Source: Chitinophagaceae bacterium (lineage in GTDB: Bacteria > Bacteroidota > Bacteroidia > Chitinophagales > Chitinophagaceae). Taken from it: a stretch of DNA of 37,997 nucleotides. The position numbers were made by a program, and so were the translations under genes. The stretch is from the NCBI GenBank assembly GCA_004297075.1, contig SCVK01000344.1, positions 1-37,997 on the forward strand. Direction: 5' to 3'. Position 1 is the first letter of the stretch, and every line of letters starts with the position of its first letter. Positions 373 through 36,235 of this stretch are shown here, piece after piece. The notes beneath the pieces are model-generated. The model was not told the origin of the DNA. It was given only the letters and a program-made list of their open reading frames with translations, and did not search any database.

Positions 373-2385
373 CTATTGTTTGGTGAGTCTGAGCATGACC
401 ACACCATGGTAAGGGATCCTTGTTGGGAAACGCTGCTGGAAATGACCCAGGTCTTTCTGCCGCCACAGATCACGGATCTTCCATTTTCCTTTCAGCCCCA
501 ATGCGGCAAAATCGAATACATATGATCTGGCAGATTCATTACCCCAGCGGAAATAAGATTGCGGCGTGCTGCCAAACCCGTCGATATTAAATAGTCCCAC
601 TGCATAAGAACCATCTTCCAGTGGTTTCAGCCAGGTTTGTACGCCATTGGTATCCGCTACCAGTCGCGCAGCTTTACCCAATGGATCCTGGTTAACAGCG
701 ATCACTTCATCATTGGAAAGAAGGCTCAGCGTAAAATCATCCAGTCTTTCAATAGGGCAACCGATCAGCATCGGCGCAGAGAGCAGACTGAAAATACTCA
801 CATGACTGTATTGCTCATCCGGTGTTAAACGGGTGGGATGTAATACAGGACCAATCGATACATCTCCCACGATCATCATATCCGGATCGGCCCAATGACC
901 CGGCCCGGTATAAGGCCCCCATTTATCCAGCGAAAAACTGGTCTGGTATAAACTGTTCCAGCTGTCTTTGATATCGGGTCCGGTACGATACATATTGGAC
1001 AAACGCACCCAATCTTTTACTTTTTCAAAAGGCGCGTTATTAGATAAACTCAATACAATATCTCTTCCTGCGTTACGCAGCGCCTGCGACATGCGCTCGG
1101 TAGAAGCCACATCGATGCGCCAATCGTATTTCAGAAAATCCACTCCCCATGCCGCCATCTGCCTCGCATCGTTCGGCTCAAATTTATATCTGGCGATTCG
1201 ACTAAAAGGAGGGCGGTTTACTTTGATGAGTTCATGCGTTTCGCCACCGGCCGGATAATCGGAAGAAGCACCTACATAGCCGGCATAACTGGCAATATAA
1301 GGAGTGGAATAGAGGCCGGCTTTTAATCCCATCGCGTGAATCTCATCGATCATGCCTTTGATATCGGGAAATTTTTCATTGGGTTGCAAAGCCGTATCCT
1401 TTCCTGTTCTGGTTCCCTGCCAGGCATCGTCAATATTGATATAGGTCCAGCCATGATCCCTCAATCCCTTGTTCACCATAGCATGGGCAGAAGCCAGTAC
1501 TTTTCCGCGATCAATTTTTGATTCCCATGAATTCCACCCGTTCCAACCGATAGGGGGTGTTAATGCGATCGTATCGCCAATTTTGATCTGCAATTTTTGC
1601 GTTGCTTCACCCAAGCGATTCCTGGCTTTGAGTATGGCGGTGTAGATTCCTCTTTTGGCAACAGTACCAGTGATAATACCGGTTGCTGAAGATACCGACA
1701 AACCTTCGGGCAGCTGCTGCGCCGAGAACTGCATGGGTCTTTCGCCGGTAGCGGCAATGGTATACAGAAAAGGATTTCCGGGTGTGGCACCAAATACTTT
1801 CGCCGAATTGATCCTAGGTTGGGGTGATGGTTTGGGTGTAAGAATATATTTTTCATCGGTGAACTGCATGTGTCCGGGTTTATGTCCCGCATACATTTCC
1901 AACTTGGCATTGGCCCAGTTCGCATACGTACGTTTATTACTGATGCCTCCGATCTTATCTGTGATCAGCAAACCCAGTTGTTTAATACCCGTGAGATCCA
2001 CTTCCACTTTTATGGGCGCATCTCCCATTTTCATTTCCGGACTCTGAAAAAGGATCTTTTTATCTCCCAGTACATAAAAGATCAAGGGTATCTCTTTGTT
2101 GCCCATATCGTCTAAACCAACCAGTGCAGAAAACTGCGTGGCTTTTCTATCCAGATCAAATACCAGGATACTGATGCTTTGTACACCCACTCCCCGCTGG
2201 TATCGCACACCACTCATCCGCATGGTATCGTGCCCGTAATTGCTCTTTAGAGAAACAGGACGAATGGCTTCCGAAAAAGTTTGCATGGGCAGATCATCCA
2301 GCCATACAGTATGGGTTGTTTGTGCGGTAATGATTGTAGACAAGCACAAACCAGCGGTTAAAAAAAGGCTATATATTTTTTTCAT
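373..2385 (-). CDS. GH27 alpha-galactosidase-like protein with N-terminal NPCBM-like and putative Ig (He_PIG-like) domains
   Basis: TPPIGWNGWNSW...YINIDDAWQG, FLKYDWRID (nucleophile region), RTGPDIKDSW (acid/base region), GHWADPDMM are GH27 hallmarks. Signal peptide starts at MKKIYSLFL (ATG at 2385; the longer ORF starts at 2397). Confidence 0.92.
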   Translation of the reverse strand: MKKIYSLFLTAGLCLSTIITAQTTHTVWLDDLPMQTFSEAIRPVSLKSNYGHDTMRMSGVRYQRGVGVQSISILVFDLDRKATQFSALVGLDDMGNKEIPLIFYVLGDKKILFQSPEMKMGDAPIKVEVDLTGIKQLGLLITDKIGGISNKRTYANWANAKLEMYAGHKPGHMQFTDEKYILTPKPSPQPRINSAKVFGATPGNPFLYTIAATGERPMQFSAQQLPEGLSVSSATGIITGTVAKRGIYTAILKARNRLGEATQKLQIKIGDTIALTPPIGWNGWNSWESKIDRGKVLASAHAMVNKGLRDHGWTYINIDDAWQGTRTGKDTALQPNEKFPDIKGMIDEIHAMGLKAGLYSTPYIASYAGYVGASSDYPAGGETHELIKVNRPPFSRIARYKFEPNDARQMAAWGVDFLKYDWRIDVASTERMSQALRNAGRDIVLSLSNNAPFEKVKDWVRLSNMYRTGPDIKDSWNSLYQTSFSLDKWGPYTGPGHWADPDMMIVGDVSIGPVLHPTRLTPDEQYSHVSIFSLLSAPMLIGCPIERLDDFTLSLLSNDEVIAVNQDPLGKAARLVADTNGVQTWLKPLEDGSYAVGLFNIDGFGSTPQSYFRWGNESARSYVFDFAALGLKGKWKIRDLWRQKDLGHFQQRFPTRIPYHGVVMLRLTKQ

Positions 2386-2398
2386 GATACGATACAAT

Positions 2399-4438
2399 TC
2401 AGTTAGTTGGAAAAAGCCGGATCATGGACACACCATGGTGCCGGATCCTGGTTTCAAATGTGTTGGTATAAGTGCCCAGTTCTTTTTGTCTCCATATATC
2501 TTTGACCTTCCACTTACCCTTCAGTCCGAGTTGGCTAAGATCCAGCGTATAGGTCCGCTCCTGTTCATCGCCCCAGCGGAAATAAGATTGCGGTTTTTTT
2601 CCATAGCCGTTGATATTGAACATGCCCACTGCATAGGAGCCGTCTTCCAGTGTTTTAAACCATACCTGTACATTACCATCATCGGCCACCAGTCTTGCCG
2701 GTTTACCGAGTGGGTCCTGGTCTATAGCGATCACTTCATCATTGGTCAGCAGGTTCAGGGTAAACGCATCCAGTTGTTCTATCGGACAACCGATCAGCAA
2801 TGGCGCGGATAATAAACTGAACAGGCTCACATGACTGTATTGCTCATCCGGTGTTAAACGGGTGGCATGTAGTTTGGAACCAGTGGTAACATTACCGAGG
2901 ATCATCATATCCGGATCGTTCCAGTGGCCCGGTCCACCATAAGGCATCCATTTATCCAGTGTAAAAGCAGATACATAGAGGCTTAGCCAGTTATCGCGGA
3001 TATCCGGACCTGTTCGCCATGCATTGGCGATCCTTGCCCAGTCTTTGGCCAGTGCGAATGGAGCGGAGTTGGATAAACTGTATAAAATATCCCTGCCCGA
3101 TTGTTGTAAGGCAACAGACATGCGTTCTGCAGAATTGAGGTCGATGCGCCAGTCGTATTTTAAATAATCCACGCCCCATTCCGCCATCTGCAACGCATCT
3201 TCTTTTTCGAAACGGTATTTACCGATGTAGCGGTTGGCGCGTTTATCTTTTTCGATGGAATCTGTGTACGCCCCATTCTCGAAATTGGAAGAGCCTCCTG
3301 TTTTACCCACATAACTGGAGATCCACGGAGTGGAATAAAGACCCAGTTTTAATCCTTTGGCATGGATCTGGTCTGCCATGCTTTTAAAATCCGGAAATTT
3401 TTGTGTGTTGGGCTGGATGGCGTTGTATTTACCGCCCCGTAATCCCTGCCAGGCATCATCAATATTGATATAGGTCCAGCCATGACGCTGTAACCCCATA
3501 TTCACCATGGCATTGGCCGATGCCAGTACTTTTTCCTGGTCAATTTCCCTGGCCCAGGAGTTCCATCCGTTCCAGCCGATGGGTGGGGTAAGTGCAATGG
3601 TATCGCCGATCCTGATCCGTAAGGTTTTGGAAGCCACCCCTAATTTATTTTTAGCACGGAGGGTAGCGATATAAGTTCCGCTTTCTTTTACGGTTCCAGT
3701 AATAATACCCGTTGACGGATCCAGCTGCAATCCCCTGGGCAAACCCGATGCTGTATATACAATGGGCATATCTCCTGTGGCTACGATCGTATATAAAAAA
3801 GGATTACCCGGTCTTGCACCAAAAATAGCAGGTGAATTGATGCGGGGAGTGGCAGGGGGTTTGGGTGTGAGTATGTATCGTTCTCCATCATTCGGAATAG
3901 AAGCTGGTAAAGCGTTCCCCAGCATGACCAGCTGTGCATTGGCCCAGTTGGCGTAACCGCGTTGCGATTCTTCGTTGGGGAGGACCAGCAAGCCGAATCG
4001 TTTGATTCCGGTCAGGTCTACTGTTACTTTTCTGGCCGCTTCCCCCTTTTTCATTTCTCCACTTTCAAAAAGGATTTTTTTATCGCCGATCACATAAAAA
4101 CGACTGACTGTTCCTTCTGCGGCTTTATCATCAATACCTGCTTCTGCAGTAAATGCTGCTGCTTTTCCATCCAGTAAAAAAAACATGGCGCTGGTACCAT
4201 GAATACCCAGTCCACGTTCGTACCGTACGCGGTTGATCTCGATGGCCCCACCGCCCGAAGCTGTTTTCAGCGAAACAGCCGGTATGGCCTCGTTAAAAGA
4301 AGGGATACTGAGCTCATCCAGGTAAACAGCTGTTGGGGCTTGCGCGTTGGCAGTGCTCAGCAGGACCATTGCCAGTAAACAGGCAGCAGCTTTTTGCCAC
4401 ATCCTGTTCATTTTCCGGTTCTGAATAATTGTATGCAT
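2399..4438 (-). CDS. GH27 alpha-galactosidase-like protein with NPCBM-like and Ig-like domains, paralogue of the adjacent gene
   Basis: Same domain order and motifs: TPPIGWNGWNSW, YINIDDAWQG, YLKYDWRID, RTGPDIRDNW, GHWNDPDMM. Signal peptide present; start may be the internal ATG of MNRMWQKAAACLLAMVLL (4411). Confidence 0.92.
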   Translation of the reverse strand: MHTIIQNRKMNRMWQKAAACLLAMVLLSTANAQAPTAVYLDELSIPSFNEAIPAVSLKTASGGGAIEINRVRYERGLGIHGTSAMFFLLDGKAAAFTAEAGIDDKAAEGTVSRFYVIGDKKILFESGEMKKGEAARKVTVDLTGIKRFGLLVLPNEESQRGYANWANAQLVMLGNALPASIPNDGERYILTPKPPATPRINSPAIFGARPGNPFLYTIVATGDMPIVYTASGLPRGLQLDPSTGIITGTVKESGTYIATLRAKNKLGVASKTLRIRIGDTIALTPPIGWNGWNSWAREIDQEKVLASANAMVNMGLQRHGWTYINIDDAWQGLRGGKYNAIQPNTQKFPDFKSMADQIHAKGLKLGLYSTPWISSYVGKTGGSSNFENGAYTDSIEKDKRANRYIGKYRFEKEDALQMAEWGVDYLKYDWRIDLNSAERMSVALQQSGRDILYSLSNSAPFALAKDWARIANAWRTGPDIRDNWLSLYVSAFTLDKWMPYGGPGHWNDPDMMILGNVTTGSKLHATRLTPDEQYSHVSLFSLLSAPLLIGCPIEQLDAFTLNLLTNDEVIAIDQDPLGKPARLVADDGNVQVWFKTLEDGSYAVGMFNINGYGKKPQSYFRWGDEQERTYTLDLSQLGLKGKWKVKDIWRQKELGTYTNTFETRIRHHGVSMIRLFPTN

Positions 4439-4453
4439 CTGGTTGAATAATTA

Positions 4454-6631
4454 CTACAAGTTAGTTTGTATGGTTATTGACCTTGTGGGATCAGCGATAG
4501 TTACTTTTGTTCCTGTTCTCTCTACCTTAATAAATACATCCGCTTCTCTGCTGAGTCGCAAGATGTCCTTTCCGTTTTGTTGTATGGCAGAAAATCCCGT
4601 AGCTGCCAGTTTTTGTACATTACCCTGCGCATCCAGTTTTACGGCTGCCAATCCTTTGTATTGCCCGGTGTACAGTTTGCCCTTGTATGCAAACCGGAAA
4701 ACTGCCGGTTGGTTATTGGCGAGTGAGGCTGTATTGGTAAAAGTGAAAGAGCCTTCTTCGTTGGTTACCCCATCTTCCAGCTGATTGGCTGGTATCCCCA
4801 GCCGCGCCACGTTCTCGAGAGAATAACCGATGGCTACTGCTTTACTGGCAATCTGTTTCCAGGTGGCAGTTATATCTTTTCCGATAAAATCATGTGTAGC
4901 ATTTCCTTCCAATAACAGTTTACCGCCTTTGCTCACATAGTCCTGAAAAAAACGGGTGGTAGCTGGTTTGGCATATTGGGGGTTGAGGAGAACGATTGCA
5001 TCAAACGTATATCCGTTCAATACGGGTTTACCCGCTGCGTTGAGGTGCAAACGTCCGTCTTCGATCAGGTCGGTAGGTACGGAAGCATTCAGGTATCCTT
5101 TCTGCCAGAGCTGCATGGATCTTTTCTCCATTTCCAGTTTATCATTGATATCATACATTCCCCGCTTCGAATTATCGGGATACCAGTTGTACATGGCTTC
5201 CATACCATATACCACCAATAATTTGATCTGCGGGAAAGGTGGATCAAAGCGGTTCAGCAGCCGGGCCGCGTTCTCTACTTTATTGATCCTTTCCAATGCA
5301 ACAGGATCATCTATTGAAACACCCCAGCCCTGCACGTCATTGGCCGCATGGTAATGTGTGCGGATGCCATAGCGGAGATCGGTAAGGGCTTTGGTCCAGA
5401 TGCGGGTCAGGTCTTTGCCATAATACATATTGTACATCGCATTCTTCCTGTAACCCATACCGATACCCATCTGTATAGGCGTGGCCGTTTCTTCGTCGCT
5501 GTGTCCATAATCTCTTTTAATACTCCACCAGCTTACACCGGTTTGCCATACTTCATCCCTGTCCAGGTTGTTGTGAAAGGTATTGTGCAAGCCGATAAAG
5601 GCCTCTTTCCCATACATTTTTTTTCCCAGATCATACACGGCTGCTTCTACCGGTAAAGTAGCAAACCGCAGGAGGTTCATATATTGATTGATCGCACTGA
5701 TCCTGACTTCAGGTTTACCTTGTGGTGCATACCGCATATCCAGCAACACCCGATCCAGTTCTTTACCGGTCTTCTGTTTCATTTGTTTTGCCATACCCAG
5801 TGAATACAGCCGCTCTCTGAAAACACCAGCTTCTTTTTCCAGTACTTTCTGCTGGGTGATTTTCAGATTTTTGTACTCGTCGAGGCCAATCCCATCAAAA
5901 GGGATATCGCGGTAGGCTTTGAATACATTCAACAACACAGACATGGCCTGTTCAGAAAAATTACTGCAGGAGTTATAATAATGCTGGGTAAGAATATAAG
6001 CGGTATACCCTTTCAGGTCCTTACCTGCATGCAGCGATAGAGAAACCTGTTCTTTTGTAACATTGGTTTTAGCAAAAGCCGAGATATCTTTTAGTGAGGC
6101 GGGATCATACACGCCATCTGCTGTTTTCTTAAATGCATATACTTTGAACAATTCACTTTTTAACAGGGTCTGCATTTCTCTGGCTCCTTTGGCAGCAACT
6201 GCATAGGTAGCCGCACCCGCATCATCCAGTGTTACTTCACCCTCCTGTATCAGTCGGTCCGTATTTTCGAGGGCGATGTTAAAATCCCTTTTCCATACCT
6301 GTAATCCTATCTGCAGGCCCTTACTGTGTGCATACGCTACCAGCTTTTCAAAAACCGGGTGCATGGCGGTGGTGTCGTAAAAACTATTCCCGCTTCTTTC
6401 AGTGAGAAAAACCAGTGTGTACTTACTGTACCTGACAAAACTGTCGATCTTGGCCTGGTAGGTTTCTTCCTTCGCCATATTCTCCGTAAAGAACCAATAG
6501 GCTACCTGTGGATGATTCACATTTTCAAACGCATCTACATAACTGGTTGTAACGGCTTGTGCATGGCCATTAAAACCAGCCAGCCAGCAAAGTGATGTTA
6601 CTAGAAAAAATTTGACATTCATTATTTTCAT
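4454..6631 (-). CDS. Secreted glycosidase-like protein of unassigned family (putative TIM barrel plus GATase-like domain), paralogue of 12585..14759
   Basis: 725 aa, signal peptide; IPFDGIGLDEYKN acidic strand-end motif; HNTFHNN...WWSIKRDYG; LLVVYGMEAMYNWYPDNSKRG followed by ...VLLNPQYAKPATTRFFQDYVSKGGKLLLEG reminiscent of the trimerization/GATase-like domain of GH42-type enzymes. No named family recognised. Confidence 0.85.
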   Translation of the reverse strand: MKIMNVKFFLVTSLCWLAGFNGHAQAVTTSYVDAFENVNHPQVAYWFFTENMAKEETYQAKIDSFVRYSKYTLVFLTERSGNSFYDTTAMHPVFEKLVAYAHSKGLQIGLQVWKRDFNIALENTDRLIQEGEVTLDDAGAATYAVAAKGAREMQTLLKSELFKVYAFKKTADGVYDPASLKDISAFAKTNVTKEQVSLSLHAGKDLKGYTAYILTQHYYNSCSNFSEQAMSVLLNVFKAYRDIPFDGIGLDEYKNLKITQQKVLEKEAGVFRERLYSLGMAKQMKQKTGKELDRVLLDMRYAPQGKPEVRISAINQYMNLLRFATLPVEAAVYDLGKKMYGKEAFIGLHNTFHNNLDRDEVWQTGVSWWSIKRDYGHSDEETATPIQMGIGMGYRKNAMYNMYYGKDLTRIWTKALTDLRYGIRTHYHAANDVQGWGVSIDDPVALERINKVENAARLLNRFDPPFPQIKLLVVYGMEAMYNWYPDNSKRGMYDINDKLEMEKRSMQLWQKGYLNASVPTDLIEDGRLHLNAAGKPVLNGYTFDAIVLLNPQYAKPATTRFFQDYVSKGGKLLLEGNATHDFIGKDITATWKQIASKAVAIGYSLENVARLGIPANQLEDGVTNEEGSFTFTNTASLANNQPAVFRFAYKGKLYTGQYKGLAAVKLDAQGNVQKLAATGFSAIQQNGKDILRLSREADVFIKVERTGTKVTIADPTRSITIQTNL

Positions 6632-6646
6632 TTTAGCATGAATCGA

Positions 6647-8149
6647 TTATTTACCCGCCGCCTTATCCGCTACCATCTGCAAAACCGCTTTATCGTTCCA
6701 TTCGGCCGTGTGGCCGGCCATGGCGGTAAAGGAGATCCTGGCATCTGATACAGGATGGGTTGTTTTATCCAGGAACATTTTCAGGAAACGTGTTGCTACA
6801 TTGGAATAGAGTCCATCCATATCACCGGTCCAGATCCAGAGCTTGCCCTGCAGTTTAGGCCCCAATGTATTCCAGTTCTTTTCCAGTATTTTTTTCAGGT
6901 CATATTTTTCCCATTGCCGGGCAATCTGGTGATCAATTTTCCCGGTAAACGGATCAAACATAAGAGAAGGAAGTCCATCTGCCCCCCTCGGCCCGAAAAC
7001 CGCATTGTATGCTCCGAACTGCCCACCGGATACCCGGTAATCGCCGGTTCTGCTGTTCACATTTTCACCCGCTATCCAGTCTTTCATCGAAAAAGTAGGT
7101 TCACCATAAATGGTTCTTCTTCCAGGTTGCAGGTATCCGAACTTGTTATAGAAGATAGTTTCGTCCTGGTAAATATTGATGAGGCCATAATGTTCAAAAT
7201 CAACCGGATCAGGACTATAAGACCAGGTACCATCAAAAAAATCGGGATACATGATCTGTAAACCCAGCGATACCCAACCGCCTGTGGATGCACCACATAC
7301 GTAACGCTTCCGGGTTTCTGTTTTATAGTTCACCTGTTTCTCAATAGCAGGTATCAGTTCTTCAGTCAGTGCTTTTCCGCATGGACCGTTGTTCTCTGAA
7401 TCCATCTGGTACGTATCACCATATGGTCCCTGCGAATCCAGGAATACATAGATCACCTGCGGTGCTTCTTTGGTAAACCACCAGTCTGTAAAATTTTTCT
7501 GTGCCATCAGGTTATTGATGGCATTGTATCTTCCATTCAATCCGGCAGCCCGGTAACAGATCGGATAATTTCTTTCCGGATGATCGAAATAACCGGAGGG
7601 AAGCAGTATCGCAGCTTTCAGTTGTCGAGGTTTACCAAAGAAAACGGAGAGGTATTTACTTTCAACAGTAACTACTTTCACAAAAGGATGGTCAACGATT
7701 ACTGTGGGCGGGATGATTTTACTAAGCGTAAGATATAAAGATGCTGTACTAGTCAGTGAAAAAGAATCTACCACGCTATACAGATTACCCGGTACATTCT
7801 CATTACCATCATCCGTGTTCTGCTTATATGTTATCTGATAATAATATTTTTCGGAAAGATGGTCGGTTAGCTTCTGCATTCCCGTAAACTGGACATTGTT
7901 CTTACGGGTATTGATCACAAAAGCATTTTCCCCATCCCAATCTTCCGGCGTAACACCAATGGTCACTTCGGAACGGTTTCGGGGTTCCCTTTCATGTTGA
8001 CTGGTGAGATGAAAAAGCAAACGTCCCCCCTTTTGAAAAGCAGAACGCATGTCTGGCGATACCGACACCGCAATCTTTAGCGATACCTGTTGCTGACTTT
8101 GAACAGCAACAGCAATAAACAATAAGAAAACGGTTATATACTTTTTCAT
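6647..8149 (-). CDS. Secreted alpha/beta-hydrolase, putative esterase (esterase D/enterochelin-esterase-like fold)
   Basis: 500 aa, signal peptide; nucleophile elbow VCGASTGGW, candidate Asp in IWTGDMDGLY, candidate His in MAGHTAEW. Confidence 0.75.
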   Translation of the reverse strand: MKKYITVFLLFIAVAVQSQQQVSLKIAVSVSPDMRSAFQKGGRLLFHLTSQHEREPRNRSEVTIGVTPEDWDGENAFVINTRKNNVQFTGMQKLTDHLSEKYYYQITYKQNTDDGNENVPGNLYSVVDSFSLTSTASLYLTLSKIIPPTVIVDHPFVKVVTVESKYLSVFFGKPRQLKAAILLPSGYFDHPERNYPICYRAAGLNGRYNAINNLMAQKNFTDWWFTKEAPQVIYVFLDSQGPYGDTYQMDSENNGPCGKALTEELIPAIEKQVNYKTETRKRYVCGASTGGWVSLGLQIMYPDFFDGTWSYSPDPVDFEHYGLINIYQDETIFYNKFGYLQPGRRTIYGEPTFSMKDWIAGENVNSRTGDYRVSGGQFGAYNAVFGPRGADGLPSLMFDPFTGKIDHQIARQWEKYDLKKILEKNWNTLGPKLQGKLWIWTGDMDGLYSNVATRFLKMFLDKTTHPVSDARISFTAMAGHTAEWNDKAVLQMVADKAAGK

Positions 8150-8203
8150 CTTAAAATCAATTCAGATCAATGTGTTTGTCAGCTATCGCTATTATATCAA
8201 TCC

Positions 8204-9793
8204 CTATTTATAATTTGTTTTCAGGATCCCTTTTTCTTCCGAAACCGGCATCCTGAGATTTTTAAAATTCACGTTAGTGGCATTATTCAATTGTATTACC
8301 GGCATTTCTTTCGCTGTAGGGATCTGTACATCAGTAAATGTGATCCGCTTTACATCATCCAAAACAAATGCTGGCCTGAAATCGTCTTCGAGGTAGCTTA
8401 GTTTTACATTCTTTAATTGTATCCCTTCTGCATGACGCATGTATAATCCCCAGGCTGGCAATTCACCAAACATGGAAAATTCAGGATAAGCGGCTGCGTT
8501 TTCAGGGATGCGGGTGATCTCAGCTAGCGGAATATGCGCGATAGACTTATCTGCTCTTCCGCCATAACTGATTTCAATATTTTCCAGTGTCACATTTTGT
8601 ACAGGATATCCCGGTAATCCTACAATAGAAGAAGGTACCAGGTTATAAGGCAGATACGGATGCCCATAAATATGAAAATGAGAAGGACGCACCGGCATTT
8701 TATCAAAACCCGGGCGTAAATGATCCGGCGGCCCCTCGATCGGATACCCCTGATCCGGTTTCAGCAAAGGTGTTTCCACTTTTACATTGGCGATATAGAT
8801 ATCTTTGAGTGTACCCACTTCACCAGTGGTGTTTCTGCGACCGCGACGGATAAAAATGGCATTGCCGGTATTTTTGGCCTGTACATTCCGGATATCGATA
8901 TTATCCATAAAACCTCCATCCACCGATTCCAGTGCAATAGCCGAGCGATATGTATCAAAAATGGTGAGGTTGGTGATCTTGAAATTCCGGAAACCGCCAT
9001 GGTTGGCTGTACCAAACTTTAAACCGTTGGCGCTGGAACGTAAAGTGCAGTTGTCTACATACACATTCTCGCAGGAGCTATTCGGATTATCCGATTTAAA
9101 ACAAAGCGCATCATCAGATGCATTGATAAAACAGTTAGTGATACGTACATTTTTAGAATCGGTCACATCCAGCCCATCATTGTTCCAGTAAGCAGTACTC
9201 TGTACAGTGATCTTATCAATGACCACCCCATCACATTCGCGGTAATCCTGCACCCAGTCAGAAGCATTCTTCAGCGTAATACCGGTTACGGTAACATTCT
9301 TACAGCCTTTCAGTATCAACCCAAGGGCGCGGCCCGGACCGGGTCTTTTCAGCAACCAGGCAGAGTCTGACTTCACTTCTCCACTTCTCAACTTTTTAAA
9401 CACATCCATCATCAGTTCCTGGCCCTGAAAATCAATGATCCCCTCTCCTGTAATAGAAATATTTTTTTGTCCTTCTGCTATAATCAAAGCGGCCCGACCC
9501 GCCAGTTTTTTATAATCGGTGGTAAGATGAGAGCCCAGCAACACAGCTCCCAGTTCCACATGCAGTTCCACACCGGATTTCAATTCCAGAGTGCCGGTCA
9601 TATAATTACCGGGGGGTACGATCAGTTTGCCGCCGCCTTTTGCAGACAGATCATCGATCAACTGCTGTATAATTCTGGTATTCACCGTTCTTCCATCTGC
9701 CACGGCACCGTGCTGACTGATGATCACATCTTTCTGTGCGATTGCTGCAACAGTAGTTATCAGCAGGGCAACAACAACATATAATTTTTTCAT
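8204..9793 (-). CDS. GH28-like (polygalacturonase-type) parallel beta-helix protein, divergent active site
   Basis: DVIISQHGAVADGRTVNTRIIQQLIDDLSAKGGGKLIVPPGNYMTGTLELKSGVELHVELGAVLLGS is a typical GH28 N-terminus; NNDGLD and SDDALCFKS match the NTD and DD segments. Start at MKKLYVV (9793), since the 9841 ORF start overlaps the upstream gene. Confidence 0.82.
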   Translation of the reverse strand: MKKLYVVVALLITTVAAIAQKDVIISQHGAVADGRTVNTRIIQQLIDDLSAKGGGKLIVPPGNYMTGTLELKSGVELHVELGAVLLGSHLTTDYKKLAGRAALIIAEGQKNISITGEGIIDFQGQELMMDVFKKLRSGEVKSDSAWLLKRPGPGRALGLILKGCKNVTVTGITLKNASDWVQDYRECDGVVIDKITVQSTAYWNNDGLDVTDSKNVRITNCFINASDDALCFKSDNPNSSCENVYVDNCTLRSSANGLKFGTANHGGFRNFKITNLTIFDTYRSAIALESVDGGFMDNIDIRNVQAKNTGNAIFIRRGRRNTTGEVGTLKDIYIANVKVETPLLKPDQGYPIEGPPDHLRPGFDKMPVRPSHFHIYGHPYLPYNLVPSSIVGLPGYPVQNVTLENIEISYGGRADKSIAHIPLAEITRIPENAAAYPEFSMFGELPAWGLYMRHAEGIQLKNVKLSYLEDDFRPAFVLDDVKRITFTDVQIPTAKEMPVIQLNNATNVNFKNLRMPVSEEKGILKTNYK

Positions 9794-9804
9794 AGTTCTT
9801 TTTT

Positions 9805-12513
9805 TTACTTGAGTTCGTAAGTAATCGCTGGAATATTCCATCCCTTTACCACCAGTTTTACCTGATCAAGGCTTTTACCAATGGTATAGGTTTCAATGGC
9901 AACCTGTTTGGTTTCGCCCGGTAAGAGCGAAAAGAAATTATCTGTGTAAAAAGAGGGGCGAACTGGTTTTAGTGCCTGATCCAGTAACTGCAGTTGTGTG
10001 AAAAATGCAATCTGTTTGCCGGGATTTTTGATCTCGATTGCTATGTGATGAGCTTGCCCTTGTTTATGCACAGTTAGCTTTGTCTGCAGCTGCCCCTGTT
10101 TCATGGTGGCCAGTGATTCAAAACCGGCAGATGCAGGACCGGAAAGGGTTTCCTTACCGCGATACGGATCGGTGGAACGCCAGTAAAAACTATTCGTTAC
10201 CGGATTCCCCTTTTCATCCTCAATAGATAACCTGATAAAATGCACCGGCGTTATCTGCTCACCAAATTCAATGGTTAATAGATTATTCAATACCGCATCT
10301 TCCGGTATGGAAGGCAGTACAACCAATTTTGAAAACACTTTTTTACTGTTCAGATCATATACTTCTGCCCTGAGACGATAGTTGGCAAAGGAGGTGAAAT
10401 AATCATTATACACAGACACTGTATTCTTCAGATAATCAAACTGAGCATGCAATGGCTCCAGTGCGTTTTGCGTATAATACAAAGCGGAAGTAGGCTCAAG
10501 CGACCAGTCCCACATTCTGCCACAAACCTGCCGGGTAGGTGAGTTGTGATACCAGAACAATAAACCAGAACAGTATCTGTTGCCATAACCAAACTTATTC
10601 GCATTCCACACTTCCCAAACAGACTTCGCATTGATAGCATTCAGCAACTGGGCTTTTTTTGCGAACTCATCAATAGAAACAGATGTGCCATACTGATTAA
10701 CAAGATCTTTGAACTTGCCTGTCATTCCGTGAAAAGCATCTCCATCCAGGTAATCCCATACGGTTTTGTTAAAGGGCCAGAGATCTTTTTCATCCATCAT
10801 CTCGCGTAGTACTTCTACAGTAGGTAATGAGGGCGCCCCATATTCCGGATTAAATCCATCCACCCGGCTACCGCGTGCCGATGCGGTGTTTTCGTAATGC
10901 TGCATGGGGTTTACCTGCTGGTAAGGGCTCCCGTCATGCACACCATCTACTTCAGACTGCATCTGGTAAGGTCGGGTGCCGTCCAGGTTATTCAGCACAT
11001 CACGGATGCCCGATACTTCTGTGCTTTCGTTGGAAGCCACATAAAAAGCCACGGAGGGATGATTACGGATCCTTTTGATGGTAGAACTAAGATTGCTGAA
11101 ATACAGATCCTTATCGTTCGGATGTTTGGTATCGCCTGTGAGCCAAAACTCCTGCCATACCAGCAAACCCAGTTCATCGCAGCGCTGGTAAAAATAATCT
11201 GACTCTGCAATGCCGCCTCCCCATAAACGCAGCAGGTTTACACCGGATTGCCGGGTATAACGCAATTCCGCATAAGTTCGTTCATCTGAGCCACGTAACA
11301 TGGCTTCGGGAATCCAGTTGGTACCCCGGATAAATATCTTACGGCCATTCACATAAAAGGTTTTGGAACTGTCGGGTGTTCTTCTGTCGGTTGTGATCTC
11401 CCTGATCCCGAATTTGGTTTTAATAGAATCTCCTGCTACCCCATCTACATACGCCACCATTTTTAATTCATATAATTCCGGTTTGCCTTTAAACACCGGC
11501 CACCACAAACGGGGATGTTGGATGCTGAGTTGCGGAAAATCTTTTGCTGTAAAACTGACTATCTTATCCTCGCCCCGCAAAAGGGTAATTGTTTTTTCAA
11601 ACCGTATACCTTCGCCCACAATTTCACCCTTCACCACACAGGTAACCGTTTTCATGGCTACATTAAACAGTTCTACCGAAACGGTTTCATCTGCTTTGTT
11701 GTAAAGTGGTTTAGCCAGTTCCGAACGTACAAAAGGATGTCGCAAAGCCACTTTATTGGTAGCGTACAAACTGATATTTTTCCAGATCCCGGTATTCCGG
11801 TCGCGGATACCATCTTTGAAAGTAAAGTCCCAGCCAACAGACATCAGCATGGTTGTATTTAAACCGATATTACCATCGCCGCCATTGCGGTTCTCGCCCC
11901 TGGCACGCCAGGGTTTGGCTTTATTGGTTCCGGGAATATCCACCGGGTATACTTTGATGGCGATCGCATTTTTTTCTCCGGCTTTGGCAAAATCGGCAAT
12001 ATCTACCTGGTCCTGGCGGAACATGCCCGACAGGTTCATCACCTGTGTTCCGTTTACCCAGATCTCTGCCCGGTAATTAATCCCATCTATCTGCAGCCAG
12101 ATATTTTTTTCTTTGAAAGAAGCCGGAATGAGTACTTCTGTGCGGAACCAGTATGTATAAAAATCCCTGCCCACCTGCGCAATATCCGGTATCAGTTTAT
12201 TGGATAGTTTATTGTTGATACCATAATAAGGTTCCGGATACACTTTGTTAAACACCAGTGAAGTAAGCACCGTTCCCGGAACGATGGCGGGCATCCAGCC
12301 ACTGGTGGCAAAACCGGGGCGGGAGATCTCTTCCGGCGAAGCCGTTAGTTCTCCTGCTTTTTTCATTACCCAGTCAAAATAGCCACCATGCACTTCCTTT
12401 GAGTTGAGGTAGATCCTGCTGGCATCCCATACAAGATTATTCACCTGTGCATTGACAGCCGTGAACAGCAACCCCATCCAGATAATAGATAACCCGATTT
12501 TCAACTTCATCAT
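9805..12513 (-). CDS. GH2 family glycosidase (beta-mannosidase / exo-beta-glucosaminidase-like)
   Basis: IRGTNWIPEAMLRG, GVNLLRLWGGGIAESDYFYQRCDELGLLVWQEFW, NHPSVAFYVASNES, FNPEYGAPS; signal peptide MMKLKIGLSIIWMGLLFTAVNA (start 12513; the ORF track extends to 12585). Confidence 0.88.
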   Translation of the reverse strand: MMKLKIGLSIIWMGLLFTAVNAQVNNLVWDASRIYLNSKEVHGGYFDWVMKKAGELTASPEEISRPGFATSGWMPAIVPGTVLTSLVFNKVYPEPYYGINNKLSNKLIPDIAQVGRDFYTYWFRTEVLIPASFKEKNIWLQIDGINYRAEIWVNGTQVMNLSGMFRQDQVDIADFAKAGEKNAIAIKVYPVDIPGTNKAKPWRARGENRNGGDGNIGLNTTMLMSVGWDFTFKDGIRDRNTGIWKNISLYATNKVALRHPFVRSELAKPLYNKADETVSVELFNVAMKTVTCVVKGEIVGEGIRFEKTITLLRGEDKIVSFTAKDFPQLSIQHPRLWWPVFKGKPELYELKMVAYVDGVAGDSIKTKFGIREITTDRRTPDSSKTFYVNGRKIFIRGTNWIPEAMLRGSDERTYAELRYTRQSGVNLLRLWGGGIAESDYFYQRCDELGLLVWQEFWLTGDTKHPNDKDLYFSNLSSTIKRIRNHPSVAFYVASNESTEVSGIRDVLNNLDGTRPYQMQSEVDGVHDGSPYQQVNPMQHYENTASARGSRVDGFNPEYGAPSLPTVEVLREMMDEKDLWPFNKTVWDYLDGDAFHGMTGKFKDLVNQYGTSVSIDEFAKKAQLLNAINAKSVWEVWNANKFGYGNRYCSGLLFWYHNSPTRQVCGRMWDWSLEPTSALYYTQNALEPLHAQFDYLKNTVSVYNDYFTSFANYRLRAEVYDLNSKKVFSKLVVLPSIPEDAVLNNLLTIEFGEQITPVHFIRLSIEDEKGNPVTNSFYWRSTDPYRGKETLSGPASAGFESLATMKQGQLQTKLTVHKQGQAHHIAIEIKNPGKQIAFFTQLQLLDQALKPVRPSFYTDNFFSLLPGETKQVAIETYTIGKSLDQVKLVVKGWNIPAITYELK

Positions 12514-12584
12514 TTCACGGCTTTGTCTGTACAACTTTTTCTGCTTCCTGATTAACAGTAACACTATCCTTTCTGAGGGCAGCA

Positions 12585-14759
12585 TTATAATTTATTGATC
12601 ACCGGTCTTTTCTTCCCGGTTTTGTCGGCAATGATCAGTTTCACTTCCTTCGCCTTCCGCTCTACAAAAACATCTGTAGGCTCCTGAAAACGTAATATTT
12701 CTTCTCCGTTACGACGTAAACTGGTAAAACCGGTTACACCCATTTTCTGCAGGCCTGTTTTTTTACCTGCCTTGATCACGGCCAGTCCGCGGTATTCACC
12801 GGTATATTCATCTCCCTCAAAATTCACTGTAAAACTGGCTGCCTTACCGGTACGCATCGATGCCATGTCGTTGAACGTGTATGATCCATCTTCATTACGG
12901 CAACCGTTGGGCAACAGGTTCTTCTGTAAACCCAATCTTGGCAGGTTCTCTACCGAATATCCCACCACTGTAGCCTTATCATAAATCGCTTTGAAACGGT
13001 TAGTGATCAGGTTACCTGTAAAATCACGATCCGCACTACCTTCCACCATCAGTTTGCCACCTTTGCTTACATATTGTTCCAGAAACTTCAGTACAGGTTC
13101 TCTGGCATATTGAGGATTGATATAAAGTACCGCATCAAACTTGTGCCCGTTCAGTACAGGTTTGCCATCTGCACCAATGGTAAGCTGGTTATTCACAATA
13201 AGGTCCGATGGTACCAGTGCATTCAGGTAACCCGATTTCCAGATCTCTACGGCCCTTTCTTCGATCTTCATTTTGTCGTTGATATCATACACCCCCCTGT
13301 TAGCATAATTAGGATACCAGTTAGAGAGACCTTCCATTCCAAAAATCACCAGCAGCCGGATATCGGGTAAAGATGGATTGAACTTGTTCAGCAGCCGGGC
13401 ACAGTTCTCATTGGCATTGATACCTACAATAGCATCCGGATCTTCCAGGTCAAAACGTAAGGGGCGTTTATCATTCATAGCATGGTAATGGGTTCTTACG
13501 CCATACCGCAGATCATTGAATGATTTTACCAGTACCGGTTCCAGCACGGCATCGTAATACTGGTTGTACATGGCGTTTTTAGGATGCGCCATGGCAATAC
13601 CCATCTGTGTGGGCAGAAATGTTTTTTCGTCTGTTTGTCCGTAAGCCCGGGGAGCGCTCCACCAACCAATACCATTGGCCCAGATCTCATCATTGATCAA
13701 ACTGTTGTGATATGTATTATGGATTCCGCTGAAAATCTGTTTGCCATATATTTCACGCGATGCATGGTATACTGCCGTTTCTACCCTCACTCCGCCTTTG
13801 CGCATGAACTCCATGTATTCGTTGATGGCTTTAATGCGTACTTCGGGTTTACCGGTGGGCGCATAACGGCCATCAAAAAGCGTTTGCTCCAAAGAACGAC
13901 CTGTTTCTTTGGTATACTCCCTGGCCATGGCATTGGAATACCAGCGGCCACGAAAAGGCGTGGATGTATTCAGGTCAAAAATGCGTTCTATAAATTTGTT
14001 TCCATATTCATCCAGCGAAAAGCCATCGAAAGGGATATCGCCGTAGGCTTTCATGGCTGCTACAAAACCATCGATTTCTACATTGTCCCAGTTACTGCTC
14101 TGGCTGCAGTATTGCTGTGTTATGACGCAGGCTGTCAGACCTTTCATAGACTCCCCGGCTTTGATCTTTACTGCTACCGTTGCTTTATCAGGCAAAACCA
14201 CTTCGCAATGTTGGGTAATATCTTTCAGTGTGGCGGGGTCGTAAAAACCATCTCCGGTTTTCCTGAATGCATATACTTTAAAAAGATCCGATTTCAATAA
14301 CCGGTGTTCGAAACGAATGAACTGGGCTTTGATGGTAGCTGCTGCATTACCTGCCTGATCCAGCGGCAGTTCCGTTTCAATGATCATTCGTTGAGAACCC
14401 TCAATCGTTTTATCATTGTAGTTGCCCCAGAGCTGCAGTCCTACTTTTAATCCCTTTTTATGTGCCGCTGCTACCAGGTTCTTGAAAACAGGATACATTT
14501 TTTTATAGTCATAGAAATTCGCTCCTTCCCTCGCGGTTAAAAAGATCAGGGTGTATTTACATTTTTCTGCAATACTATCGATATGTTTCAGATACAGATT
14601 TTCATCGGTGATCAGATTGGGAGAGATAAACCAATAACCGATCTGCTCATGGTTTTCATTGGCAAACTCAGGCACATAGGTTGTTTTTTTTGTCTGTGCA
14701 AAAGTTACAGCGGTACTCACTGTTAACAGAAAAGCGATGGGGAGAAATAATTTTTTCAT
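12585..14759 (-). CDS. Secreted glycosidase-like protein of unassigned family, paralogue of 4454..6631
   Basis: 724 aa, signal peptide; shares collinear motifs with 4454..6631: IPFDGFSLDEYGNKF, HNTYHNSLINDEIW...GWWSAPRAYG, THYHAMND, WYPNYANRGVYDINDKM, INPQYAREPVLKFLEQYVSKGGKLMVEGSADRDFTG. Confidence 0.85.
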   Translation of the reverse strand: MKKLFLPIAFLLTVSTAVTFAQTKKTTYVPEFANENHEQIGYWFISPNLITDENLYLKHIDSIAEKCKYTLIFLTAREGANFYDYKKMYPVFKNLVAAAHKKGLKVGLQLWGNYNDKTIEGSQRMIIETELPLDQAGNAAATIKAQFIRFEHRLLKSDLFKVYAFRKTGDGFYDPATLKDITQHCEVVLPDKATVAVKIKAGESMKGLTACVITQQYCSQSSNWDNVEIDGFVAAMKAYGDIPFDGFSLDEYGNKFIERIFDLNTSTPFRGRWYSNAMAREYTKETGRSLEQTLFDGRYAPTGKPEVRIKAINEYMEFMRKGGVRVETAVYHASREIYGKQIFSGIHNTYHNSLINDEIWANGIGWWSAPRAYGQTDEKTFLPTQMGIAMAHPKNAMYNQYYDAVLEPVLVKSFNDLRYGVRTHYHAMNDKRPLRFDLEDPDAIVGINANENCARLLNKFNPSLPDIRLLVIFGMEGLSNWYPNYANRGVYDINDKMKIEERAVEIWKSGYLNALVPSDLIVNNQLTIGADGKPVLNGHKFDAVLYINPQYAREPVLKFLEQYVSKGGKLMVEGSADRDFTGNLITNRFKAIYDKATVVGYSVENLPRLGLQKNLLPNGCRNEDGSYTFNDMASMRTGKAASFTVNFEGDEYTGEYRGLAVIKAGKKTGLQKMGVTGFTSLRRNGEEILRFQEPTDVFVERKAKEVKLIIADKTGKKRPVINKL

Positions 14760-14768
14760 TAGTGGTGT

Positions 14769-16397
14769 TTATTCGGATTTAGTAGCACTTCTTCTGGGTG
14801 GTTTTACATGCATGTTCTGCGCCCAGGTTTCATATTCTTTTTTCATACTGCTTACCCTGTCGGGATATTGTGTAGCCAGGTTGCGGGTTTCAGAAGGATC
14901 ATCTGTAATGTTATACAGTTCCCAATCGGGATCTTCCCAATCTTTCACCAATTTCCAACTACCGGTACGGATCGCTTTGTTACCCTCATGTTCCCAGCAA
15001 ATGGTCCGTTCAGGAGCCTGTTTGTTTTTCCAGAGATAACTGAGACTTTGTCCGGCTATCCCTTCCGGGGCAGCGGCCCCGGCCAGCTCAAGTGCAGTGG
15101 GCATCAGGTCGGTTACATGTCCTGTAGAGGACAGATACCCTTTCTGGGGGTTGATGGCTTCGGGCCATTGCAGTATGCAAGGGGTAATAATCCCTCCTTC
15201 ATGCATAAAATGTTTGTATTTGCGGAACGGGGTATTGGATACATTGGCCCATGGCATATCGTAGGTATAATATGAACCGCGTTGGCCCACCAGTTTGGTA
15301 CTGTCATTAAAATTTCTATTATTGGTATTTTCAGCACAGCCTCCGTTATCCGACAGAAAAACAATCATGGTATGCTCATATTGTCCATTGGCTTTTAATG
15401 TAGCAACCAGCCGGCCTATGTTCTGATCCATCCGTTCTATCATAGCAGCATATACCGCCATCTTCCGGATCCATGTTTTTTTGTCGGTAGCATTTTCCCA
15501 TGCAGGAATATCAGCAGGTCTTTCGGTCAGATGATAACTTGCATCTACCAAGCCCAGTTTTTTCATTTTAGCATACCGTTCTTTTCTGATGATATCCCAT
15601 CCGCTGGCATATATCTTTTCATACCTTGTAATGAGTGCCTCATCGGGAGAATGGATCGGAAAATGAGGGGCCGTATAGGCGAGGTATAAAAAGAAGGGGG
15701 CCGCATCTTTTCTTTTTTTCTCTGTTTCCAGGTATTCCAGGGCATGATCGGTAAACGCATCCGTCATATAAAACCCTTCCTGCGGAATATCATAGTCCTT
15801 ATCTTCCAATACCACATGTCTTTTGCTTTTTTCCTGCGGCAGGATCTCATAATAACTGCTGGCACCTGAGATAAGTCCGAAATAATGATCAAAACCTCTT
15901 TTCCTGGGCCAGTGTTCCGGGCGCTCTCCTACATGCCATTTACCCGACATGTAGGTATGATAACCTTCTTTTTTCAGCAGCTCTGCTACCGTGGCATAAC
16001 CGGGATCAAGAAACCCCTGGTAATTACCCGGTTCATATGATGCGGGGGGCGTAGTAACCATTAAGCCCATTCCCACCTGGTGCGGGAAACGGCCGGTAAG
16101 CAGACTGGCGCGGGTAGGACAACAACGTGCGTTGTTGTAAAAGCTCCGCAACTTGATACCTTTGGCCGCCAGCTGATCGAGGTTGGGTGTATTCACTTCT
16201 CCTCCGTAGCAACCGATATCGGAATAACCCATATCATCGGCCATGATATAGATGATGTTAGGGCGTGAGGGTGTTAAGCTAGGTACATTAGCAGATAGCA
16301 AAAACGAGCAGGTAGTTACCAGCAACAACAGCTGTAACCTATGCTGGTTGTACCATGCCTGCCCGGGCGCATCTGTGCTTTTTCTTATTGTATTCAT
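14769..16397 (-). CDS. Arylsulfatase (S1 family, Cys-type)
   Basis: PNIIYIMADDMGYSDIGCYGGEVNTPNLDQLAAKG; formylglycine signature CCPTRASLLTG; GYHTYMSGKWHVG; FLSDNGG. ATG overlaps the upstream stop (ATGA). Confidence 0.95.
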   Translation of the reverse strand: MNTIRKSTDAPGQAWYNQHRLQLLLLVTTCSFLLSANVPSLTPSRPNIIYIMADDMGYSDIGCYGGEVNTPNLDQLAAKGIKLRSFYNNARCCPTRASLLTGRFPHQVGMGLMVTTPPASYEPGNYQGFLDPGYATVAELLKKEGYHTYMSGKWHVGERPEHWPRKRGFDHYFGLISGASSYYEILPQEKSKRHVVLEDKDYDIPQEGFYMTDAFTDHALEYLETEKKRKDAAPFFLYLAYTAPHFPIHSPDEALITRYEKIYASGWDIIRKERYAKMKKLGLVDASYHLTERPADIPAWENATDKKTWIRKMAVYAAMIERMDQNIGRLVATLKANGQYEHTMIVFLSDNGGCAENTNNRNFNDSTKLVGQRGSYYTYDMPWANVSNTPFRKYKHFMHEGGIITPCILQWPEAINPQKGYLSSTGHVTDLMPTALELAGAAAPEGIAGQSLSYLWKNKQAPERTICWEHEGNKAIRTGSWKLVKDWEDPDWELYNITDDPSETRNLATQYPDRVSSMKKEYETWAQNMHVKPPRRSATKSE

Positions 16398-17581
16398 AGT
16401 ATCCAGATTAAAGGATGACGGAGAGGAAGATTACGTATCACTTCATCGCCCTTGGGCTGATGATCAAGGCGTTTCCAGATATCGAACCAGCTTTGTGTAT
16501 GGTAAGCAACAGCACCCAATAACAAAGCCGGTTGTGCAACGGGCCATTCATCCCAATGCATTACGTCTTTACGATAAGGCCAATCATTTTTCTCAGCAAT
16601 AAAAGGAACCATATACTCCATTGCTTTTCGGAAACTCCGGCCATCAGGTGTGGTGTAGTTCCAGAGATTGTCTTCGGGAGTAGAGAGCAGCTGACATACT
16701 GTTGCCATTGCATCCAGGTTAAACAGCGAATAGCCGTAGGGTTTGGTCCGTTTTAATTCCAGCGGAAAACTACCATCGGTGCCAATTTGCTTCGGAAGCA
16801 GTGTATTTTTAAACCGATCCTTACAAAAAGCAATCTCAGCAGGCATTTGTGCAAACCTTGCAAATGCTGCCACCTGCATTACCCAGCAAGTGCCATGATT
16901 ATTTTCCCGTTTCATTTCATCCTGTCCGTAAGGATGTTGCATCAACCAGTTTACATAATCTGCAAACCATTGGCGGATAGGCGCTATCTCTGCCTGAGAG
17001 CTTGGGTCTTGCTCCAGCATGGCTATCAGTCCCTGCGCCACTTCTATCAGATGGATGGTATCAATGATCCCGATACCTCTGCCGGTTACACGTCCTTTAA
17101 TGGCCTGTGCATACAGCAGCCGGGGATTCATACGCGTTGCCGTATCAACAAACCAGGCCCGGCAGTGAAGCAATGCCTGGTTCAGGTATTTTCTGTTATG
17201 TGTAAGTGTATAGGCCGAAGCCAATGCCGCCACAATATTGCTGAAACGGATCATCACATGACGGTGGGCCACAAAATTGCCGGGATTAGACATGCCATCA
17301 TGATTGATATACGGGCTATCCGGATGTGTGGGATTGGGCCAGAAATAATCAGCTTCAGAAAAAAAATCATGAATTCCCCCGGCAGTTCCGGGTGCAGCAA
17401 ATGCGGTAATGGTTTGTGGTGCCTGCTGCATGGCCCATGCTGCTTCTTTCATTACCTGGCTTCGCAATACCTGTACAACAGCCTCTCTGTAAGAAGCTGT
17501 TCTGCGATTATTGCCCGCTTTGGTAAAAGCACACAATATCGCAGTTACAAAAAGCAAACAGGTAATGGGGTATTTTTTCAT
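16394..17581 (-). CDS. Alginate-lyase-domain polysaccharide lyase-like protein (PF05426-like)
   Basis: EADYFWPNPTHPDSPYINHDGMSNPGNF, RENNHGTCWVMQVAAFARFA (NNHGT motif), RTKPYGYSLFNLDAM; signal peptide. Confidence 0.83.
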   Translation of the reverse strand: MKKYPITCLLFVTAILCAFTKAGNNRRTASYREAVVQVLRSQVMKEAAWAMQQAPQTITAFAAPGTAGGIHDFFSEADYFWPNPTHPDSPYINHDGMSNPGNFVAHRHVMIRFSNIVAALASAYTLTHNRKYLNQALLHCRAWFVDTATRMNPRLLYAQAIKGRVTGRGIGIIDTIHLIEVAQGLIAMLEQDPSSQAEIAPIRQWFADYVNWLMQHPYGQDEMKRENNHGTCWVMQVAAFARFAQMPAEIAFCKDRFKNTLLPKQIGTDGSFPLELKRTKPYGYSLFNLDAMATVCQLLSTPEDNLWNYTTPDGRSFRKAMEYMVPFIAEKNDWPYRKDVMHWDEWPVAQPALLLGAVAYHTQSWFDIWKRLDHQPKGDEVIRNLPLRHPLIWIL

Positions 17582-17602
17582 GATAAGTTTACTGGTAATA
17601 TT

Positions 17603-18742
17603 TTATTTAAGAATCTGCAGCATGGCCGAACCTGCCAGTAAAAAAGCCCCTGCCCCGTATGACTCCCAGCTTTCTGCATTAAAATTTCTCCTTGGGTCTG
17701 CCCCAATGGGCTGCACCCAACCTACTTTACCTTCTTCTGTAACCAGGGTATTCAGTGCCTCCCATGCTTTTTTTACCACGGGCATATATGTTTTTTTATC
17801 GAGCAGTTTCTGCTGGACCCCCCAGGCCAGTGCATAACAATAGAAACCGGTTCCGCTTCCTTCTCCACCTACGTAAGATCCGGGATCCAGTAAGCTGGTT
17901 CTCCATAATCCATCGGGTTGCTGCAGGGTGATAATTTTTTCTGCCATCTCTTTGTATAACTGTATATAAAATTTCCGGCCGGCATATTTTCCGGGCATTT
18001 CCTGCAGGTATCTCGCCAATCCGGCCAGTACCCATCCATTTCCCCTTGACCAGAATATTTTTTCACCATTGGCTTCTTTTTTACCCACCCCATTTGCATC
18101 TACCAGGTAAGAAGCATCTCTAGCAAAAAGATGAGCCTCTGAATTATACAGCAATGCATAGGTCTGCCTGAAAAGGGTATCGCTCCATACAAGATAAGAG
18201 GGTTCCTGCAGGGTTTTGGCTAGTTTGGCCATAGCGGGCGGTGCCATAAACAAAGCATCACACCACCACCAGGTAATACCGTGCTTTTTTACCTCATTAC
18301 CCTCCACTTCTTTCATTTTCTGCAAAGAATCGAGTGTGGGTTGTATCATTTTTTTGTCTTTCGATAACCTGTACAGGTCTATGTAGGTTTGACAGATAGC
18401 ATAATCATCCGCATGATCAAACCGACGACCGGGTTGCCATTGTTTCCGCTCTCCCATTGCAATCATAGAATCCAGCAGGGTATTAGACCTGGTGGCTTCG
18501 AACGCTGCAAATACGCCTGTGTAAAAAGCGCCATTGGTCCAGTCGTTCAGGGGTTTCCGGTTGGAATGATTCATTTGCCAGTCTGCCACTTTCAGCATAG
18601 TTGCCCTGATCTGATCAGGCTGAAAAACGGTTGATGTCTGTGCCATTGTACCGGAATACATACCGAAACAAATAATCAGCAACAGCATAATCCTGCGATT
18701 ACAATAAGGTAGATGCATATAATTGATTTTATCAATGGTCAT
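17603..18742 (-). CDS. GH105 (GH88-like) unsaturated glucuronyl/rhamnogalacturonyl hydrolase
   Basis: ADDYAICQTYIDLYRLSKD, TWWWCDALFMAPPAMAKLAK, FWSRGNGWVLAGLARYLQEMP, DPGSYVGGEGSGTGFYCYALAWGV; signal peptide. Confidence 0.92.
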   Translation of the reverse strand: MTIDKINYMHLPYCNRRIMLLLIICFGMYSGTMAQTSTVFQPDQIRATMLKVADWQMNHSNRKPLNDWTNGAFYTGVFAAFEATRSNTLLDSMIAMGERKQWQPGRRFDHADDYAICQTYIDLYRLSKDKKMIQPTLDSLQKMKEVEGNEVKKHGITWWWCDALFMAPPAMAKLAKTLQEPSYLVWSDTLFRQTYALLYNSEAHLFARDASYLVDANGVGKKEANGEKIFWSRGNGWVLAGLARYLQEMPGKYAGRKFYIQLYKEMAEKIITLQQPDGLWRTSLLDPGSYVGGEGSGTGFYCYALAWGVQQKLLDKKTYMPVVKKAWEALNTLVTEEGKVGWVQPIGADPRRNFNAESWESYGAGAFLLAGSAMLQILK

Positions 18743-18782
18743 GTCAGTAACGTAACTATAGACAATACTTCATACAAACGTT

Positions 18783-21886: not shown

Positions 21887-21890
21887 GGCA

Positions 21891-23309: not shown

Positions 23310-23314
23310 AGATT

Positions 23315-27580: not shown

Positions 27581-27625
27581 GAGTTGTCAGGATAGGCAGA
27601 ATAATTCATTTATACCAAGCGGTTA

Positions 27626-28657: not shown

Positions 28658-28678
28658 AGGAATTGTTTTCAATTTCTT

Positions 28679-31066: not shown

Positions 31067-31113
31067 AAGAGGATACTTTTCTGGAAAAATGATTGAAAAG
31101 ATTACTAAACTAT

Positions 31114-31127
31114 TGGAATCGGTTACA
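31114..31127. promoter_or_regulatory. Possible LacI-family operator upstream of the GH92-like gene
   Basis: TGGAATCGGTTACA is an imperfect palindrome with central CG (10 of 14 positions match the reverse complement), 48 bp upstream of the GH92 start codon. Confidence 0.3.
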
Positions 31128-31193
31128 CAAAATGCGCTGCAACCCAGATCACTATCAGGTACGTATAACCATACTATACACCAGTTTCACAGG

Positions 31194-31250
31194 TAAAGAA
31201 AAAGGACCTGTTCAGCAACAGGAGACATATCCCACTGAACAGATCCTTTT
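31194..31250 (-). terminator. Rho-independent terminator/attenuator between susD and the downstream enzyme genes
   Basis: Arms AAAAGGACCTGTTCAG (31200-31215) and CTGAACAGATCCTTTT (31235-31250): 15 of 16 positions complementary, 19-nt loop. On the minus strand the stem runs into ...GGTCCTTTTTCTTTACC. Starts 12 nt after the susD stop codon. Confidence 0.75.
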
Positions 31251-31261
31251 ACCAACAACCA

Positions 31262-33130: not shown

Positions 33131-33151
33131 AATGATAAGTTTTGATGAAGT

Positions 33152-36139: not shown

Positions 36140-36235
36140 AATAGCAATTTTATGTTTAGCAATTGTTGGTTCCATTACAACGTCATACAGTGTACGATCG
36201 GAGCAATGGTGAACTAAACTTATTAAATCCTTTTA

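Follow-up and report, generated by a model that had tools for sequence, protein, structure and literature searches.

Among the described glycoside hydrolases (GH), families GH106 and GH42 offer the closest points of comparison for the proteins considered here. In the GH106 enzyme BT_0986, the proposed catalytic acid is E461 and the proposed base E593, and the calcium ligands include D458, S459 and E538; in the group represented by Ram106B, an Asp-Glu pair replaces D458-S459, and a His and an Asp replace E538 and E561 of BT_0986, respectively (PMC6828813). We analyzed a window of 37,997 nt (the whole stretch under study), contig SCVK01000344.1 of a Chitinophagaceae bacterium (GCA_004297075.1), in which a polysaccharide utilization locus (PUL) encodes two paralogous proteins, A and B. 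On balance, we judge these to be secreted glycoside hydrolases of a rare, unrecognized family, remotely homologous to GH106, that would deploy catalytic carboxylates at strands β4 and β6 of a TIM barrel and probably act in an exo mode. Their assignment as glycosidases is likely because of their export, their PUL context and their fold. Family, fold, conservation, PUL context and the remote link to GH106 emerge from computation, as detailed below.

The A/B protein family and its distribution

The original prediction had placed two full-length, collinear homologues at positions 4454-6631 and 12585-14759. Both open reading frames are present, on the minus strand, which had not been given, and pairwise alignment of the encoded proteins is collinear over 695 amino acids with 47% identity (E = 0). 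The motifs LDEY and HNT[FY]HN...DE[VI]W...WWS, which had been highlighted before, were found in both proteins; the strongest second acidic motif, YG[HQ][ST]DE at the end of β6, had been missed. Signal peptides, likewise anticipated, are evident at both N-termini, as judged by eye and without a predictor.

The two proteins had been said to match no nameable GH family, and our searches agree. Neither reached the cut-off of any Pfam or NCBIfam family (newest models from 2025 and release of June 2026, respectively), phmmer and profile searches from the A/B family against all PDB chains gave nothing, and a search of PHROGs with A and B returned nothing credible. The GH106 model PF17132 of Pfam has no match in the window's genome (G000), nor does it hit either protein at E ≤ 1. 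A literature search found no description of the family. These results support the conclusion that it is undescribed, as judged by Pfam, NCBIfam and the PDB, a yardstick that a recent CAZy family without a Pfam/NCBIfam model and a solved structure could escape.

A scan of GTDB genome contigs with narrow peptide patterns recovered 16 loci, in Chitinophagaceae and in Bacteroidota metagenome-assembled genomes (MAGs). By profile search, the family is present in 19 of 399 Chitinophagaceae genomes, the window's own included. Among 396 Bacteroidota genomes, 2 carry it, each belonging to the same genus as the window. Class- and phylum-wide searches, confined to Bacteroidota, gave no convincing member beyond Chitinophagaceae, and the plasmid and viral collections contained no relatives of A and B. 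Weak matches in G837, G1114 and G396 look like chance and were rejected as family members.

The family alignment of 42 members falls into three groups: A-like proteins (64-80% to A), B-like proteins (61-86% to B), and a distant subfamily of about 770 amino acids (23-28% to both), likewise without Pfam or NCBIfam matches. In the tree, in which some deep forks are weak, A and B form separate clades that each span several genera, and their duplication is consequently old. Both occur together in G150, G682, G432, G633, G505 and L011, adjoining homologues of the same PUL genes, and their PUL location is kept across many genomes. The earlier proposal of two versions of one chemistry, adapted to different linkages or sulfation states, fits an old split whose products were kept together in several PULs; A and B would then be old, specialized copies. 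A third copy lies directly beside A in BSSC1 and 24-39-8; the third paralogue beside A at L005:12160-14328 and L006:5560-7734 shares 41% with A and forms a long-branch group of its own. The distant subfamily resides in gene contexts other than the A/B PUL, and at L063:8627-9457 its neighbor is a PhyH-like oxygenase that follows SusC/SusD-like genes; it therefore likely acts on another substrate.

Predicted fold, probable relation to GH106 and candidate active site

The AlphaFold2 model of A, computed from 37 diverse sequences, is confident (predicted local distance difference test 89.6, predicted template modeling (TM) score 0.89) and backs the TIM barrel with a following GATase-like domain that had been surmised from the sequence. 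Strand numbers follow our reading of the model's DSSP string (β1, 43-48; β2, 73-78; β3, 107-112; β4, 247-251; β5, 345-349; β6, 376-378; β7, 399-402; β8, 423-426). The acidic LDEY motif does sit at a strand end, D251-E252 terminating β4, and the HNT...WWS block runs from β5 into the β5-β6 loop. Foldseek matched this model to GH42 (E 3.5e-9), to 6tvk (2.3e-8), which we take to be a GH151 enzyme, and to GH164 (5.2e-7); a poorer first model had matched GH106 (6.1e-12). For both models, every match with an E-value under 1e-4 is a glycosidase or a glycoside phosphorylase, except for one pyruvate kinase barrel.

The second match of the first model, GH112 (2zuw, E 1.3e-9), raises the alternative that A and B are glycoside phosphorylases that use one carboxylate and phosphate as the nucleophile, a picture with which a β7 strand devoid of a carboxylate, the invariant Arg424 and the near-invariant His428 would agree. 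We hold it to be very improbable, as both proteins are exported by signal peptides and encoded among the secreted hydrolases of the PUL, GH112 lies outside the top 50 matches of the better model, and two acidic motifs are invariant. No GH112 members were found with PF09508 in relatives or controls.

Profile comparison points to GH106. In hhalign, the 42-member family profile and a set of 33 GH106 proteins, drawn from Chitinophagaceae and their relatives, reached a probability of 95.9% (E 5.9e-9) over 580 collinear columns, against 0.1-10.9% over 21-90 columns for controls comprising GH42, GHL6, GH27, GH2, GH92, GH28, DUF4962, esterase and sulfatase sets. Six GH42-type proteins scored 7.1%, and a mixed GHL6 set (PF14871; GHL6 is presumably linked to GH151) 10.2% over 22 columns. 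As these E-values refer to single comparisons and the control sets were smaller than the GH106 set, the contrast counts more than the value. The family hidden Markov model (HMM) matched one GH106 protein, in its Rossmann-like domain only (E 8.7e-6), whereas ten further protein sets gave no match. The GH42-type likeness of the original prediction thus stands for the overall architecture, but the deep relationship points to GH106 instead. Remote kinship with GH106 appears probable from these profiles, a grade chosen because the signal falls with smaller alignments; a GH106 alignment of only four sequences gave no usable signal.

Several observations weigh against the reading that we prefer. GH106 is not among the top 50 Foldseek matches of the better model, and TM-scores to the best matches are about 0.35-0.47, so that the superposition is loose and indicates similar architecture, not close structure. 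The GH106 score needs the pooled alignment, as A/B taken separately reach 27% and the distant subfamily 3%, and the active-site segment by itself did not align significantly with GH106; the equivalence of individual residues is therefore weak. The rhamnose isomerase RhaA is absent from 47 of 48 Chitinophagaceae, GH106 carriers too, and its occurrence is therefore uninformative.

If the kinship were closer, A and B could be divergent GH106 α-L-rhamnosidases with a metal-assisted inverting mechanism, forming a distant subfamily like Ram106B. The hhalign result would suit this view, as would the GH28 of the PUL, which comes closest to rhamnogalacturonidases, partners of rhamnohydrolases in the breakdown of rhamnogalacturonan I. 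In Ram106B, the Asp-Glu at β4 and the His and Asp that stand where BT_0986 has E538 and E561 (PMC6828813) recall D251-E252 at β4, H349 at β5 and D379. We nevertheless consider this alternative unlikely, given the failure of PF17132 on the window's genome and on both proteins, an HMM of Chitinophagaceae GH106 that matches no member of the A/B family, and the base Glu of the GH106 enzymes compared in PMC6828813 (E593 in BT_0986), which by strand count appears as Asn401. Strand count and one sub-alignment set the GH106 base strand KTIVGAEAFT opposite KNAMYNMYY, so that the position of the base would be Asn401; the full-length hhalign alignment instead places that Glu (E417 of L073) opposite A383, beside DEET.

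Invariant in all 42 members (A numbering) are W46, F47, E132, E252, W368, W369, D379, E380, N401, Y404, R424 and E453; D251, H349 and H428 are each found in 41, and position 360 is Glu in 40 and Asp in 2. The invariant residues persist despite about 25% identity between subfamilies. Because the β7 Glu of GH106 and GH42 appears to be replaced by the invariant Asn401, we propose a β4/β6 pair: the catalytic carboxylates would be E252, partnered by D251, and either E380 or D379, assisted by H349, N401, R424 and H428. The C-terminal face of the barrel would be the site of substrate binding. Absence of the β7 carboxylate could alternatively signify a non-catalytic, glycan-binding member of this scaffold, yet the other carboxylates and the aromatic residues are strictly conserved across three subfamilies, which makes such a role highly improbable. 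The carboxylates that the model places at β4 and β6 would also be compatible with a retaining enzyme having its nucleophile at β4 and its acid/base at β6, as in the α-glycosidases of GH29, GH151, GH27 and GH36, acting for example on α-L-fucose or α-galactose. The Foldseek match to the fucosidase 6tvk and a GH29 gene in one related PUL lean this way, but no profile link to GH27 or to the mixed GHL6 set emerged, and we regard this reading as quite unlikely. A remote GH106 homologue with a β4/β6 pair remains our preferred description. The original proposal of an undescribed glycosidase family is supported: no confident sequence match to a characterized family was obtained, and the predicted fold offers a plausible carboxylate pair.

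Gene neighborhood and proposed role

The window holds a SusC/D PUL that also encodes a LacI regulator, five sulfatases, an esterase, a PF05426 lyase, a DUF4962/heparinase-like protein, enzymes of GH2, GH28, GH88 and GH92, and two NPCBM-GH27 proteins (Table 1); the esterase, GH28 and GH2 genes separate A from B, as described earlier. The NCBIfam models closest to GH28 are rhamnogalacturonidases, with scores below their cut-offs, and together with the GH106 kinship this hints at a uronic polymer containing rhamnose or another deoxy sugar. The association of A with GH27 is kept across genomes: a tandem GH27-like pair lies beside A in most relatives, GH27b typically next after it, and this conserved pairing suggests a coupled activity.

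We infer hydrolysis, the catalytic residues, an exo mode and the type of sugar. A and B would probably cleave α-linked rhamnose, or some other sugar, from the ends of oligosaccharides derived from a sulfated polysaccharide that contains uronic acids, their action alternating with that of the sulfatases, GH28, GH27, GH2 and GH88 encoded alongside them. The setting may be freshwater, judging by the look of related MAG records. To our knowledge, little is known about freshwater enzymes for sulfated polysaccharides; a conserved, unassigned enzyme pair at the center of PULs of this kind would put a name to a step missing from that pathway. More tentatively, the proteins may constitute a new CAZy-level GH family with a sister subfamily of about 25% identity, in which an ancestral GH106/GH42-like scaffold lost its β7 catalytic Glu, catalysis moved to β4/β6, and duplication made A and B specialists for a sulfated freshwater polysaccharide. 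If true, the β7-to-β6 shift makes the evolution of catalytic pairs on a common barrel directly testable.

Table 1. Features of the window, with residue numbers of the encoded proteins.
Feature	Position	Strand	Basis
Paralogue A (P0001), 725 aa: signal peptide, TIM barrel with β insert, GATase-like α/β domain, C-terminal β domain	4454..6631	-	ORF, model
Paralogue B (P0002), 724 aa, collinear with A	12585..14759	-	ORF, pairwise alignment
A: TIM barrel, residues ~40-462	5246..6514	-	AlphaFold/DSSP
A: β insert after β3, residues ~124-222	within barrel	-	AlphaFold/DSSP
A: Rossmann-like (GATase-like) domain, residues ~466-612 (elements 471-609)	4796..5236	-	AlphaFold
A: C-terminal β domain, residues ~616-725 (elements 621-723)	4457..4786	-	AlphaFold
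A: D251-E252 (LDEY), end of β4, candidate catalytic acid	5876..5881	-	model, alignment
A: D379-E380 (YGHSDE), end of β6, candidate second catalytic carboxylate	5492..5497	-	model, alignment
A: E360 (DEVW); hhalign partner is the invariant Glu of GH106 'GEFW'	5552..5554	-	alignment
A: N401 on β7, apparently at the place of the catalytic Glu of GH106/GH42	5429..5431	-	model, alignment
B: D250-E251 (LDEY), equivalent to A D251-E252	14007..14012	-	alignment
B: D377-E378 (YGQTDE), equivalent to A D379-E380	13626..13631	-	alignment
Two tandem NPCBM-Ig-GH27-like (Melibiase_2) genes, directly downstream of A	373..4438	-	domain matches
Putative esterase, PF00756	6647..8149	-	domain match
GH28	8204..9841	-	domain match
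GH2, directly downstream of B	9805..12585	-	domain match
Sulfatase, PF05426 lyase, GH88, then four further sulfatases	14769..24904	-	domain matches
DUF4962/heparinase-like lyase, LacI regulator, GH92, SusD, SusC	24920..36175	-	domain matches

Divergent from susC, positions 36343-37134 (+) encode a small exported DUF4350/LBP_M-like (GATase-like) protein with weak Pfam matches. Related PULs contain a second orphan family of about 640 amino acids (L005:19967-21886, L006:13352-15280, L013:16329-18245, L017:16723-18657, L059:3024-4940); neither of the two members compared with Pfam gave a match, nor did the one compared with NCBIfam. A 721-aa open reading frame between two GH27-like genes (L011:14325-16490) has no Pfam/NCBIfam match and was missed by the A/B family profile.

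Comparison with known glycoside hydrolases and phosphorylases

The GH112 lacto-N-biose phosphorylase (2zuw), a Foldseek match of the first model, shares with A and B a Rossmann-like domain after the barrel, whereas A and B are exported and show no sequence link to GH112, which is missing from the top list of the better model. The GH151 α-L-fucosidase 6tvk and the GH164 β-mannosidase 6t6g resemble them in predicted architecture by Foldseek, but with TM-scores of 0.35-0.41 and no PDB sequence match. With the GH42 β-galactosidases, the top matches of the better model, A and B have in common the TIM barrel, the GATase-like and C-terminal β domains, and the β4 Glu; they differ by the β insert after β3, by the lack of a profile link (7%), and by the absence of the GH42 β7 nucleophile, NAMYNMYY carrying no carboxylate. 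GH106 (PF17132; BT_0986, RHA-P 6q2f, Ram106B) matches them collinearly at the profile level and likewise has a barrel with an inserted β region followed by a Rossmann-like domain, a helix after β4, an Asp at β4 and a His at β8. Most of the compared GH106 proteins are, however, about 940-1140 amino acids long, against 725 for A, which PF17132 does not match; their D-S-x-E acid/metal motif at β4 contrasts with LDEY/KDEW, and the place of their base appears to be taken by Asn401. A and B would broaden the structural group of GH106 and GH42 by an active site of another kind.

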